Origin: Gammaproteobacteria bacterium
Lineage (GTDB): Bacteria > Pseudomonadota > Gammaproteobacteria > Steroidobacterales > Steroidobacteraceae
Direction: 5' to 3'
Assembly (NCBI GenBank): GCA_029865465.1
Contig: JAOUGW010000006.1
Span: forward strand, 1 to 36,125
DNA: 36,125 nt
Both the position numbers and the translations under genes were made by a program. Position 1 is the first letter of the stretch; the number at the start of each line of letters is the position of its first letter. This document shows, in pieces, positions 3,414-34,574 of this stretch. The notes below the pieces were generated by a model. That model was not told the origin of the DNA. It did no database searches and saw nothing but the letters and a program-made list of their open reading frames with translations.

Positions 3414-3548
3414 GCGCCGTGCGACCTTTTCCGCCTTGGCGGACCAGTCGCCCAGGCGCCCCGTCTCACAAGCGACCGATCCGGGGCCTTCCCCCGAGCG
3501 CGTATCTGCCTTTCCAAGCTCGGGGGAAGGCCCCGGATCGGTCGCTTG
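3414..3548 (+). repeat. two-hairpin variable-stem element, copy A
   Basis: Module 1 (3414-3459, 46 nt) has outer pairs GCGCC/GGCGC, then GTGCGAC/GTCGCCCA flanks, and an inner hairpin around CCGCC/GGCGG. After 9 nt comes module 2 (3469-3548, 80 nt): two 31-nt arms (3469-3499 and 3518-3548) that are perfect reverse complements around an 18-nt loop region containing TATCTGCCTTTC. The same layout with different stem sequence recurs at 25029-25158 (minus) and 34385-34516 (plus). It lies between the stops of folD and cysS, with module 2 nearer cysS. The function is unknown. It could act as a bidirectional terminator, a structured RNA or a non-autonomous mobile repeat. Confidence 0.85.
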
Positions 3549-3551
3549 CAA

Positions 3552-3606
3552 ACAGCGCGTGTCTGTCTCTTGCGAGCGCGACAGGACGTGCCGGACGGAA
3601 CGCCCG
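3552..3606 (+). repeat. decayed half copy of the module 2 loop and right arm
   Basis: Directly after copy A, GCGCGTGTCTGTCTCTTGCG resembles the conserved loop core, with TGTCTGTCTCTT in place of TGTCTGCCTTTC. It is followed by GACGGAACGCC, which resembles the outer end of other right arms. There is no matching left arm. A cleaner half copy sits in the same relative place beside copy D (34524-34574). Confidence 0.4.
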
Positions 3607-3611
3607 GGCGC

Positions 3612-5081
3612 TCAACCCCGCCGCCAGAGCGTGCGGCCGCCCGGCTGGTCCTCCAACTGCACGCCGCTCGACGCCAGCAGGTCGCGGATCCGGTCCGATT
3701 CCTTGAAGTCCTTCGACTTACGCGCCGCGGCACGCTCGTCGATCAGGCGCTCGATATCGGCGTCGGAGAGCGCTGGCGTTATCGAGCCCGTCCCGGACGC
3801 CTCTATCATGGGGAGTGTCGAACCCCCTGGTCCCTCCCCGGCCGCCGCCATCTTCCTCGCCGCCTGCTTGCGCAGGAACACTTCCGGTTCGCGCCCAAGC
3901 AACCCCAGCCGCGCACCTAGCGCACGCATCTCCGCCGCCAGCCCCGCCGCCTTGTCGAGATCGCCGGCCGCCTTGGCCGTGTTGACCTCGCGCGCAAGCG
4001 CCTGCAGTTCCGACACTGCGATCGGCGTATTGAAATCGTCGTCCATTGCCGCGACGAACCGCTCGGAGGCCTTCGTCGGCGCCTGCAATGCGACGACCGG
4101 CACGCCACGCAGCGACGTGTACAAGCGCTCGAGCGCCGCATCCGCCTGCGCCAGGCTGTCGGGCGTGTAATTGATCGGACCGCGGTACTGGCTGTTCACC
4201 ATGAAGTAGCGCACGACCTCCGGGTCGCGCACCCACTCCAGCACTTCGCGCACCGTGAAGAAGTTGCCCAGCGACTTCGACATCTTCTCGTCGTCGACGC
4301 GCACGAAGCCGTTGTGCATCCAGACGTTCACGAACGGTGAGTCGCAAGCCGCGCAGGTCTGCGCGATCTCGTTCTCGTGGTGCGGGAACTTGAGGTCCAT
4401 GCCGCCGCCGTGGATGTCGAAGTGCGGGCCCAGGATGTCGACCGACATCGCCGAGCACTCGATGTGCCAGCCCGGCCGCCCCGGACCCCACGGCGACTCC
4501 CACGCGGGCTCACCCGCCTTTGCTGCTTTCCACAGCACGAAATCGAGCGGATCGCGCTTGGCCTCGTCGACTTCGATGCGCGCGCCCGCCCGCAGGTCGG
4601 CCAGGCGTTTGCCCGACAGCCGCCCGTACGTCTCGAACTTGGCGACGGCGTAGTACACGTCGCCGTTGCTGGCCGCATAGGCGTAGCCCTTGTCCACCAG
4701 CGTCTGCACCATCGCGACGATCTGCGCGACGAACTCGGTCGCACGCGGCTCGCGATCGCCCAGGCGCACGCCGAGCGCCGCGCAGTCTTCCTGGTAGGCC
4801 TTGATGAAGCGCTCGGTGAGTGCCTGCATCGGCTCGCCGTTGGCTTGCGCGCGCTGGATGATCTTGTCGTCGATGTCCGTGATGTTGCGGACGAACGTGA
4901 CGTCGTAGCCCGATGCCTCGAGATGGCGGCGCACGACGTCGAACACGATCAGCATCCGCGCGTGACCGAGATGGCAGTAGTCGTAGACCGTGATGCCGCA
5001 GACGTACATGCGGACCTTGCCGGGCTCGAGCGGCTTGAAGACTTCCTTGCGGCCCGTCAGCGAGTTGTGGATCTGCAGCAT
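3612..5081 (-). CDS. cysS: cysteinyl-tRNA synthetase
   Basis: This class I synthetase charges tRNA-Cys with cysteine. The 489-residue protein shows [10 protein letters not shown] with zinc-binding Cys28, the HIGH-type motif HLGH at 37-40, the WHIECSAM and HHENEIAQ segments that carry the other zinc ligands, and KMSKSLGNF. The C-terminus ([25 protein letters not shown] ... TLWRRG) is typical. Compared with the E. coli enzyme (about 461 aa), there is an extra Gly/Ser-rich stretch of some 20-25 residues near 400-425. The start at 5081 is chosen because [10 protein letters not shown] matches the family start and GAGGG lies 5-6 nt upstream. Earlier in-frame starts fall inside a palindrome. Confidence 0.96.
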
Positions 5082-5096
5082 GTATCCCTCGTAATT

Positions 5097-5136
5097 GGGG
5101 ACGCTCACCTATTTCCAGAAATAGGTGAGCGTCCCC
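5097..5136. repeat. REP-like perfect 18-bp palindrome
   Basis: GGGGACGCTCACCTATTT and its exact reverse complement flank the 4-nt loop CCAG. The sequence resembles REP/BIME palindromes tied to RAYT (Y1 REP) transposases, from memory. It lies between the gltX stop and the cysS ribosome binding site on the minus strand, so the hairpin would form in the message about 15 nt before the cysS start. No transposase is in the window. Confidence 0.8.
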
Positions 5137-7288: not shown

Positions 7289-8028
7289 ACGCCGACCGCC
7301 GCAAGACGTTGCTGATCTCGGACCTGCACCTCGATCCATCAGCACCCGGGATCGCGCGCCAGTTCGTCGACTTCCTGCGCGGCGAGGCGCGCGCAGCACG
7401 CGCGCTCTACATCCTGGGCGACCTGTTCGAAGCCTGGCTCGGCGACGACGATCCCGATCCGGCCGCGCGTGCCATCGTCGCGGAGTTGCGCGCACTGCAC
7501 GATGCGGGTGTACCGACGTATTTCATGCACGGCAACCGCGATTTCCTCATTGGCTCGCGCTTCGCCGCCGAGACCGGCTGCACCCTGCTCGACGATGGCA
7601 CGGTCGTCGATCTGCACGGCGAGCGCGTGCTGCTGATGCACGGCGACGTGCTCTGCACCGCCGACACGAGCTATCAGCGCCTGCGTCGGATCCTGCGCAA
7701 TCCCGTCACCCTGTTCGTGCTGCGACACCTCGGCCTCGAGTCGCGGCGCAAGCTGGGCCGGAAACTGCGGGCGGGCAGCCAGATGCACGTGGGAGCAACC
7801 GCGGCCGCGATCATGGACGTCACGCCGTCCGAAGTCGTGGACTCGCTGCGGCATGCGCGCGTCAGCACACTGGTGCATGGGCACACCCACCGCCCGGCGA
7901 TCCATCTGCTTGAGGTGGACGGCAGGCCGGCGCGCCGCATCGTGCTCGGCGACTGGTACACGCAAGGGAGCGTGCTCGAGTGGCGCGACGATGGCGTGGA
8001 GCTCCGCGCGCTGCCGCGCGGGAAGTGA
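7285..8028 (+). CDS. lpxH: UDP-2,3-diacylglucosamine diphosphatase (lipid A synthesis)
   Basis: LpxH hydrolyses UDP-2,3-diacylglucosamine to lipid X and UMP at the inner face of the cytoplasmic membrane. The 247-residue protein has the calcineurin-like metal motifs in order: SDLHL (13-15), GDLFEAWLGDD, HGNRDFL, LMHGD and HGHTHRP. The start is GTG in a GTGA overlap with the stop of the preceding cyclophilin gene; no in-frame ATG fits better. The stop codon falls inside the first unit of a heptamer repeat array. Confidence 0.95.
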   Translation: MNADRRKTLLISDLHLDPSAPGIARQFVDFLRGEARAARALYILGDLFEAWLGDDDPDPAARAIVAELRALHDAGVPTYFMHGNRDFLIGSRFAAETGCTLLDDGTVVDLHGERVLLMHGDVLCTADTSYQRLRRILRNPVTLFVLRHLGLESRRKLGRKLRAGSQMHVGATAAAIMDVTPSEVVDSLRHARVSTLVHGHTHRPAIHLLEVDGRPARRIVLGDWYTQGSVLEWRDDGVELRALPRGK

Positions 8029-8083
8029 GTAGTGATTAGTGATTAGTGATTAGTGATTAGTGATTAGTGAGTAGTGATTAGTC
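8024..8083 (+). repeat. heptamer tandem repeat (AGTGATT)n
   Basis: Eight 7-bp units run end to end: one AGTGAGT, five AGTGATT, one AGTGAGT and one AGTGATT, ending AGTC. The lpxH stop TGA is part of the first unit. An inverted array lies 40 nt further on, so the pair can form a long hairpin between two convergent genes. Confidence 0.95.
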
Positions 8084-8123
8084 AGAGGAGCGCCTGCAGC
8101 ATCGGCGACCAGCTTAACCTCCG

Positions 8124-8154
8124 ACTACTCACTACTCACTAATCACTAATCACT
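8124..8154 (-). repeat. heptamer tandem repeat, inverted copy
   Basis: The plus strand reads ACTACTC twice, then ACTAATC twice, then ACTT. This is the reverse complement of the AGTGAGT/AGTGATT units at 8024-8083. The MiaE-like gene's TAG stop (8146-8148) lies inside it. Together the two arrays could act as a bidirectional terminator, though there is no T-run. Confidence 0.92.
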
Positions 8155-8742
8155 TCCTCCCGGCGTGCCCGAATGGAACCGGAACTCCGTGTCCGGCGCC
8201 ACGGCCAGCTCCGCTTCGACAGCTGCCAGCTGACGCAGACGTTCCCGCGCACCCTCGCCACGCTTGTCCGCCAGGCGCAGGTAGAGGCCGGCGTGGCGGG
8301 ACTCGGCCGCCGCCAGCGACGCGTAGAACGGGCCGAGGGGTTCGCCGAGCAGCGGGATCAAGCCGATGAAGCGCTCGTGCGAGCGCGCTTCGATCAACGC
8401 GCCGATGAGCAGCAGGTCCATCCGGCGCTCGTGTTCCGTGCGGCGCAGCGCCTTGCGCAGGCCCTCGGCATAGCGTGACGGGCTCAGGCGCCGGAACGGC
8501 ACCTGCAGCGCCGCAAGCTGCTGCTGCACCAGTTCGAAATGCCGCAGCTCCTCGCGTGCCAGGCGCGACATGCGGTCAGCCAGCTCGAAGTCCTCGGGGT
8601 AGGAGAACATCAGGGCAAGCGCCGTCGACGCGGCCTTCTTCTCGCAATTCGCGTGATCGAGCAGCAGGTCCTGCCAGCGCTGCACGGCGAGCCGGAACCA
8701 GCGCGGATCGGTCGTCGACTGCAGCACGGCGGGAACGCTCAA
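8146..8742 (-). CDS. miaE: MiaE-type tRNA-(ms2io6A37) hydroxylase
   Basis: MiaE is a diiron enzyme that hydroxylates the isopentenyl group of ms2i6A at tRNA position 37. The characteristic segments are present: LLLDHANCEKKAASTAL, EELRHFELV, EARSHERF and AAESRHAGLY. They supply the Glu and ExxH iron ligands of the ferritin-like four-helix bundle. I set the start at TTG 8742 because family similarity begins a few residues later and the upstream frame overlaps the kinase gene; GTG at 8727 is the alternative. The length is then 198 residues, close to the family. It follows the kinase gene by 10 nt on the same strand. Confidence 0.85.
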   Translation of the reverse strand: MSVPAVLQSTTDPRWFRLAVQRWQDLLLDHANCEKKAASTALALMFSYPEDFELADRMSRLAREELRHFELVQQQLAALQVPFRRLSPSRYAEGLRKALRRTEHERRMDLLLIGALIEARSHERFIGLIPLLGEPLGPFYASLAAAESRHAGLYLRLADKRGEGARERLRQLAAVEAELAVAPDTEFRFHSGTPGGSD

Positions 8743-25028: not shown

Positions 25029-25158
25029 GGCGTTCGTTCCGGGTCTTTTCCGGCCGAGCGGAAAGGCAGACACGCTCGCCCGGAAAAGACCCGGAACGAA
25101 CGCCTGATCGACCGCGCCTGAGCGAATTCCCGTCAAGGCCCGGGAACTCGCACGGCGC
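25029..25158 (-). repeat. two-hairpin variable-stem element, copy C
   Basis: On the minus strand, module 1 (25158-25114, 45 nt) has outer GCGCC/GGCGC, then GCGA/TCGC, then variable arms around GTTCCCG/CGGGAAT. A 9-nt spacer leads to module 2 (25104-25029, 76 nt). Its outer 25-nt arms are perfect reverse complements; one C/C mismatch and six more pairs close the 12-nt loop TGTCTGCCTTTC, which is identical to that of copy D. The arm sequence differs from copies A and D. It lies just after the msrC stop, antisense to msrC, with module 2 nearest the stop. Confidence 0.85.
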
Positions 25159-34384: not shown

Positions 34385-34516
34385 GCGCCGTGCGAGTGCT
34401 TGCGCTCTGGCAAGCACTCGCCCAGGCGCCGTCTCGCAAGCGGCCGATCCAGTCGATCTTCCCGAGCGCGTGTCTGCCTTTCCGCGCTCGGGAAGATCGA
34501 CTGGATCGGCCGCCTG
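34385..34516 (+). repeat. two-hairpin variable-stem element, copy D
   Basis: Module 1 (34385-34429, 45 nt) has outer GCGCC/GGCGC and a 10-bp stem CGAGTGCTTG/CAAGCACTCG. A 7-nt spacer follows. Module 2 (34437-34516, 80 nt) has 34-nt arms with one mismatch, near the outer end, around the 12-nt loop TGTCTGCCTTTC. Outside the variable stems, the flank CTGCTTGCGCCGTGCGA and CGCCCAGGCGCC match copy A exactly. It lies in the 325-nt gap between the DUF3501 gene stop and parE, with module 2 nearer the stop and antisense to both genes. Confidence 0.85.
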
Positions 34517-34523
34517 TCACGGT

Positions 34524-34574
34524 GGCGTGTCTGCCTTTCCGCTCGCGGGGAAAGAACCCTGAACGAGCGCCTGC
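34524..34574 (+). repeat. half copy of module 2 (loop and right arm only)
   Basis: Just after copy D, GGCGTGTCTGCCTTTCCGCTCG repeats the conserved core, and the following bases resemble the right arm of copy C (GGGGAAAGAACCC...GAACGAGCGCC against GGAAAAGACCC...GAACGAACGCC). There is no left arm, so no long hairpin forms here. Confidence 0.7.

Follow-up and report, generated by a model that had tools for sequence, protein, structure and literature searches.

The window analysed here, a stretch of 36,125 nucleotides (contig JAOUGW010000006.1 of the Steroidobacteraceae assembly GCA_029865465.1), carries three copies of a two-hairpin element that belongs to a large repeat family. In this family the frame of the first, smaller hairpin (hairpin 1) and the loop of the second (hairpin 2) are nearly constant, and the hairpin 2 stem is about 30 bp long. 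On balance we think it probable, if far from certain, that we are dealing with a palindromic repeat, dispersed and non-coding, that is about 140 bp long, REP-like in character and seen in our searches in one genus only. Its arms would be kept equal mainly by copying at the DNA level, with some selection for the folding of one strand, and its copies would spread by recombination or transposition. How long a perfect stem lasts is an open question in the evolution of RNA and genomes, and this family provides a natural case. A single genome contains about 60 stems, sister species supply orthologues, the asymmetric loop marks flips and the flanks serve as a control for rate; with these, selection and arm copying can be separated by comparative or passage sequencing. 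It is also a repeat family that can be recognized by its loop and architecture though its arms share little sequence.

Element A lies on the plus strand, with hairpin 1 at 3414..3459 (from sequence and fold) and hairpin 2 at 3469..3548 (from pairing and fold). Element B is on the minus strand, with hairpin 1 at 25114..25158 and hairpin 2 at 25029..25104, the latter assigned from sequence, pairing and fold. Element C, again on the plus strand, has hairpin 1 at 34385..34429 and hairpin 2 at 34437..34516; its hairpins and hairpin 1 of B were assigned on the same grounds as those of A. A first-pass annotation had proposed a shared architecture for these three loci, and it was right about their places, strands and hairpin order. 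Hairpin 1 is closed by GCGCC/GGCGC in all three; spacers of 9, 9 and 7 nt in A, B and C lead to hairpin 2, within the annotated range of 7-9; and all 31 of 31 stem pairs in hairpin 2 of A are Watson-Crick. The annotated 12-nt loop of hairpin 2 holds for B and C. In A the loop as folded has 18 nt (GCGTATCTGCCTTTCCAA), because the two bases flanking the 14-base loop motif on either side are unpaired. Motif search places that conserved motif at 3502..3515 (plus strand) in A, as the variant GTATCTGCCTTTCC, and, as GTGTCTGCCTTTCC, at 25060..25073 (minus strand) in B and 34470..34483 (plus strand) in C. With up to two mismatches it occurs four times in the window, compared with 0.20 expected. The minimum-energy folds of A, B and C lie 10 to 12 SD below those of dinucleotide shuffles, and none of the 200 shuffles made for each folds as well. 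Rfam models gave only tRNAs over threshold in the window; three sister loci and one window element drew sub-threshold matches only, mostly to microRNA hairpin models. Titles and the opening lines of abstracts yielded no description of the two-hairpin architecture, which does not prove that none exists.

How widespread is the family? Exact copies of the loop, GTRTCTGCCTTTCC, number 67 in the genome that holds the window (the host genome), 79 in the related genome G007 (JAABQQ01) and 48 in G004 (JAPLSF01). The reversed loop, used as a control, occurs in none of the three. The exact loop is absent from the six other genomes of the genus and has a single match in one further genome elsewhere (60 genomes searched, host included). 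Among named genomes a 20-base pattern found 46 stretches, all in G007 or G004 except one in JAOUJD01; the flanks of that copy agree with a single G007 site over 2,740 bp (78%) and over 272 bp (88%). Among the places listed, and with identical surroundings merged, we collected 65 of the 67 copies in the host genome, 64 of the 79 in G007 and 48 of the 48 in G004. Stems of at least 24 positions are present in 143 of these 177 copies, which we call full copies and use for the stem counts; most of the 34 left out are half units or are truncated at contig ends. Hairpin 1 could be recognized in 63 of the 143 (at most three substitutions in 20 conserved bases).

In such a collection the loop is constant because it was the search term. 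The covariance model R1 was therefore trained on 24 copies in which the stem is full and hairpin 1 evenly spaced. When 150 of 3,857 candidates in the host genome were scored, R1 gave at least 101 matches, which reduce to at least 62 distinct places after opposite-strand matches on the same palindrome are removed. Six of the 62 lack the exact loop. The further copies on which the first-pass annotation had staked its reading thus exist in number. Among 118 relatives (host included) R1 matched eight genomes, all within the genus, or eight of its nine members; G003 is the sole genus genome without a match, at no more than 27 candidates scored per genome. Across 369 genomes of the class, with at most eight candidates scored in each, only the host genome matched. 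Because these range searches used stricter filters and few scored candidates, weak or diverged families elsewhere could escape them. The genomes of the genus are fragmented MAGs, and their genes were called with a home-made caller.

In sister species the architecture is unchanged: stems of hairpin 2 mostly have 24-31 positions, and loop variants such as ATGTCTTCTTC appear. Two stretches of G006 (L220:1170-2290 and L219:840-1720) hold tandem arrays of the element whose units measure about 250 bp and have copies of hairpin 1 to either side of hairpin 2. At L240:1502-1781 in G008, a 33-bp perfect palindrome of another kind replaces the inner stem of hairpin 1, giving a hairpin inside a hairpin. 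An origin in plasmids or phages was considered and set aside, as element C has no plasmid match and element B no phage match. Viral contigs were likewise rejected as carriers: at least 120 viral stretches contain the exact 14-base loop, but the stem scores of those listed do not exceed 9.7, whereas a value near 30 would be expected of a full stem of 30 pairs. These loops are therefore chance matches.

Pairing within each stem is close to complete while the paired bases vary. Standard pairs fill 95.6% of the cells of the ungapped alignment A1, compared with 76.0% in shuffles, and sliding the partner by one column lowers pairing to 42-43%. The covariation that the first-pass annotation called for proved strong in a larger alignment of 24 copies: 34 of 46 pairs change on both sides (21.2 in shuffles), and there are 206 cells with two-sided changes, where shuffles give 58.6 (SD 5.9). 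In the 143 full copies, whose hairpin-2 arms are about 30 bp long, 6.15% of positions are non-Watson-Crick within a copy, and arms of different copies differ at 41.8%. Arms paired across different copies are 58.2% Watson-Crick; as the copies were chosen for a long stem, this cross-copy value is the fair control. Watson-Crick pairs make up 85-100% at stem positions 3 to 30, and most of these positions show three or four pair types; the length of the stem is near-constant. Derivation of the arms from host sequence at each site was ruled out, because arms share a subfamily consensus between loci. So was a basal stem joining the ends of the element: complementarity of an element's own flanks averages 5.24, which is not above the 5.40 of exchanged flanks (n = 62).

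Comparison of orthologous sites shows how the stems change: the two arms change together, the loop can flip in place and the whole hairpin can differ. Three genomes yielded 67 reciprocal orthologue pairs, not all independent; in 42 of them both members carry a full hairpin. Across these 42, a new Watson-Crick pair arose by change of both partners at 177 stem positions, and 81 positions changed in one partner only; independent change of the arms would give about 71 two-sided changes. The 177 comprise 94 transitions and 83 transversions, and transversions have no route through G-U. Twelve pairs with at least nine changes in an arm supply 109 of the 177, and arms that differ so much make replacement of the hairpin likely there. 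The 30 milder pairs contain 68 two-sided Watson-Crick changes (38 transitions and 30 transversions) and 47 one-sided changes. When G004_170 is compared with G007_93, the hairpins 1 are alike and the right flanks agree at 95.5% over 556 bp, but the hairpins 2 are unlike. Transitions make up 0.53 of all compensated changes and 0.40 of changes in flanking non-coding DNA (p = 0.007). Compensated changes are not significantly clustered in blocks (15 adjacent pairs, compared with 13.1 at random and a random maximum of 19). Over 27 site pairs the arms differ at 17.5%, adjoining non-coding DNA at 15.8% and the gene end at 9.1%. A rate so close to that of the neighboring non-coding DNA rules out hypervariable arms; what remains is near-neutral drift with both arms in step.

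By one counting rule, two loops (L155 and L188) are flipped relative to hairpin 1 and 90 are normal; the count has three more rows, made up of L155 read a second time, a weak match to hairpin 1 in L158 and a half unit in tandem within the window. L188 aligns with its normally oriented orthologue L016 over 1,087 bp at 90.6%, and the flip falls inside this alignment. For L155, no orthologue spanning the element was found among the stretches examined. L059:490-660 holds two tandem units which, by eye, have a right arm in common, the left arm of the second unit being unmatched; this arrangement points to copying at the DNA level.

A second loop-like motif follows 44 of 141 full copies and lies exactly 57 nt on in 31 of them, compared with 2 for shuffled flanks; in the half units that we read, the right arm is present and the left arm is missing. 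Two occur in the window, both on the plus strand. One, at 34527..34570 (from sequence and motif search), has an exact loop motif and a right arm without a left arm, and lies 57 nt on from the loop of element C; its fold is not clearly better than that of shuffles (z -1.46). The other, at 3559..3604 after element A, was recognized by eye as a degenerate half unit, a loop-like motif with a right arm of another subtype, and by eye has a counterpart in L199. Half units would fit an exchange at the loop, a tentative account. One proposal, which we consider unlikely, is that the constant loop is the cutting or joining site of a single-strand recombinase that swaps hairpins as folded cassettes at existing elements. 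Such swaps would leave half units 57 nt downstream, loop to loop, and the arms would be free to vary because recognition would depend only on the sequence of the loop and on one strand being folded.

Where do the copies lie relative to genes? A called gene on each side, and none across, is found for 106 of the 143 full copies; the other 37 were set aside, 9 of them lying within a called frame. Sixty-seven of the 106 lie between convergent gene ends, 25 have hairpin 2 towards a stop and hairpin 1 towards a start, 12 have the reverse arrangement and 2 lie between starts; 104 of the 106 adjoin at least one gene 3' end. In convergent gene pairs hairpin 2 is closer to its own stop in 53 of 67, and where a stop faces hairpin 2 the loop centre is at a median of 103.5 nt from it. 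Of 34 cases of neighboring full copies less than 500 bp apart, 33 show the order minus-plus, with hairpin 1 inward and hairpin 2 outward. Single copies with both flanking genes called number 54 (36 convergent, 14 with hairpin 2 towards a stop and hairpin 1 towards a start, and 4 reverse); the 52 paired copies divide into 31, 11 and 8, with 2 between starts. Two of the four reverse single copies are the flipped-loop copies L155 and L188, so both obey the rule when oriented by hairpin 1.

The two strands of the stem are not equivalent. On the strand that reads from hairpin 1 to hairpin 2, mismatches are G-T in 98 cases, A-C in 30 and of other kinds in 80; after collapse into 47 clusters the counts are 74, 28 and 67 (p = 5.9e-6). 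Relative to the gene whose stop lies towards hairpin 2, this favored strand is the antisense one. G-T exceeds A-C by 20 to 6 where the left gene runs away from the element and by 63 to 19 where it runs towards it. With no visible dependence on the direction of the left gene, the bias argues less for folding in either neighbor's mRNA than for folding of the hairpin-1-to-hairpin-2 strand as DNA or as an RNA of its own, or for strand-biased mutation.

These positions behind genes fit one role put forward in the first-pass annotation, a structured 3'-UTR RNA. Two hairpins in the transcript would end transcription or protect its 3' end, and selection for RNA pairing alone would produce the covariation. 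The distance from the facing stop, the strong pairing and near-constant stem length, the preference of one strand for G-T over A-C, and the modest enrichment of transitions, as stepwise selection through G-U would give, all agree with such an RNA. So does the tendency of stem-loops in general to cluster at 3' ends, described in passages of PMC1590033. Other results tell against it. Transversions account for 83 of 177 compensated changes, and for 30 of 68 at the milder sites; the favored strand is the antisense strand of the gene that ends towards hairpin 2, and the bias is similar whichever way the left gene runs; a loop in flipped orientation is tolerated. Nor was a T run after a G+C-rich hairpin called at the three window sites, either in a scan that allowed loops of 3-8 or by eye, so that the bidirectional terminator also suggested in the annotation is not supported there in its T-tract form. 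We regard a 3'-end RNA as a possible but doubtful account of the family. The same passages of PMC1590033 describe repeat families whose members form stem-loops close to coding regions, in some families with a preference for 3' ends. The Bor, Ype and Efa families resemble the present one in this respect, but as described there they share sequence, whereas here the arms are locus-specific and the loop and hairpin-1 frame are mainly what is shared.

Could the element instead be a true REP or REPIN family, moved by a RAYT transposase that is missing from the incomplete genomes? REP, BIME and REPIN sequences are short, GC-rich, intergenic, high-copy palindromes with inverted doublets, tandem arrays and compensatory changes, in the descriptions given in parts of PMC2817692 and PMC3116915. 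High-copy intergenic palindromes and inverted doublets (the 33 of 34 close neighbors) were looked for and found here, G006 has tandem arrays, and the compensatory changes recall those described in REPIN spacers (PMC3116915). The GT(A/G)G head that precedes a REP palindrome (PMC2817692) is missing: it stands before hairpin 1 in 0 of 63 copies and before hairpin 2 in 6 of 141, where shuffles give 12. The constant loop with a variable stem, and two different hairpins in fixed order, also set the family apart. A RAYT gene would be expected to lie between two inverted copies. A Y1 gene is present in six of the nine genus genomes, but none is flanked by elements in the stretches examined, the genomes being incomplete and some stretches short. 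The host genome's one Y1 gene has unrelated ends; those of five sister genomes are unflanked, apart from a weak hairpin-1-like match without hairpin 2 in L195; and no Y1 was found in the element-rich G004 (85% complete) and G007 (78% complete). No flanked RAYT was found, and we judge this origin quite unlikely. In L054:1345-2380, repeats of the GTAACACCGGCACC type stand at each end of a Y1 transposase gene. Y2 transposase and reverse-transcriptase genes were rejected as movers, since no loop motif lies beside those examined; a hairpin-1-like match near such genes at G007:C60 is, by eye, gene sequence without hairpin 2.

An attC-like site, which an integron-type integrase would move in folded single-stranded form, is in our estimate very improbable. 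The position of attC sites at gene ends, their strand preference and their variable stems are all features that the two-hairpin element resembles, and the host genome has a full-length integron-integrase match (TIGR02249, 456 bits, G000:C14). The core pair of attC, GTTRRRY with RYYYAAC, is absent from the flanks of all 141 copies; as shuffled flanks also give 0, this shows only that the core is absent. The integrase stretch has neither the loop motif nor an attC core, TIGR02249 has no match over the cut-off in G006 or G007 and falls just under it in G004, and the copies are dispersed, not arranged in cassette arrays. At L392:181-1170 there is a full-length integron-integrase match with no attC cores in the stretch examined; the frames beside it look, as far as we can judge, like ribosomal proteins. 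The double-hairpin elements of mitochondrial genomes are small mobile elements made of two hairpins. They resemble the present family in having two hairpins and differ in the genomes that carry them.

What evidence, then, favors arm copying at the DNA level as the main force? The first-pass annotation had left the choice between selection for structure and copying of one arm from the other; both have left marks, and we judge those of copying the stronger. Simple compensatory selection through G-U predicts mostly transitions. Transversions in nearly half of the compensated changes, flips and copied-looking arms are what template switching would be expected to produce. Of the features of template switching, compensated changes that include transversions are present, as is loop inversion; block clustering was not seen. 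Selection on folding may still play a part, given the mild excess of transitions and the strand bias. Template switching has been proposed for RNA stems, with compensatory change of several bases without G-U intermediates, in PMC8794818, and the abstract of PMC8604942 names arm homogenization and spacer inversion. Those cases share with ours compensatory change without G-U, arm homogenization and inversion; they concern single RNA genes, whereas here a dispersed repeat places many stems in one genome.

Under arm copying, one arm would be rewritten from the other by template switching in replication or by hairpin-templated repair, which would also account for the loop flips. A weaker second force may be selection for folding of the strand that carries hairpin 1 and then hairpin 2, as G-T mismatches outnumber A-C on it. 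Copies would spread and replace one another by some step of recombination or transposition. They might persist behind genes because insertion elsewhere is harmful, a stable hairpin after the stop being tolerated or even useful to the transcript's 3' end. Movement as folded single-stranded DNA, another suggestion of the annotation, is still compatible with the data, but no mobilizing enzyme was found to go with it. We found no excision, insertion footprint or target duplication, no clean empty site with a target duplication among the stretches examined, and no cellular role for the two-hairpin element.

At two orthologous sites, folD-cysS and parE (gene names that we assume), sister species carry other palindromes or short spacers. 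By eye, L200, L201, L203, L211 and L212 have such other palindromes; one type has a constant centre, GGGACGCC...TTTACGGCGTCCC, with outer stems that are locus-specific but self-complementary, and is perhaps a second family of the same behavior. Two further repeats occur in the window. A perfect 19-bp palindrome, GGGGACGCTCACCTATTTC, lies at 5097-5136, at the start of the minus-strand frame 3612-5108, and is unlike the two-hairpin family. At 8021-8157, directly past a reading frame that ends at 8028, an array of AGTGATT-like repeats faces its own inverted copy.
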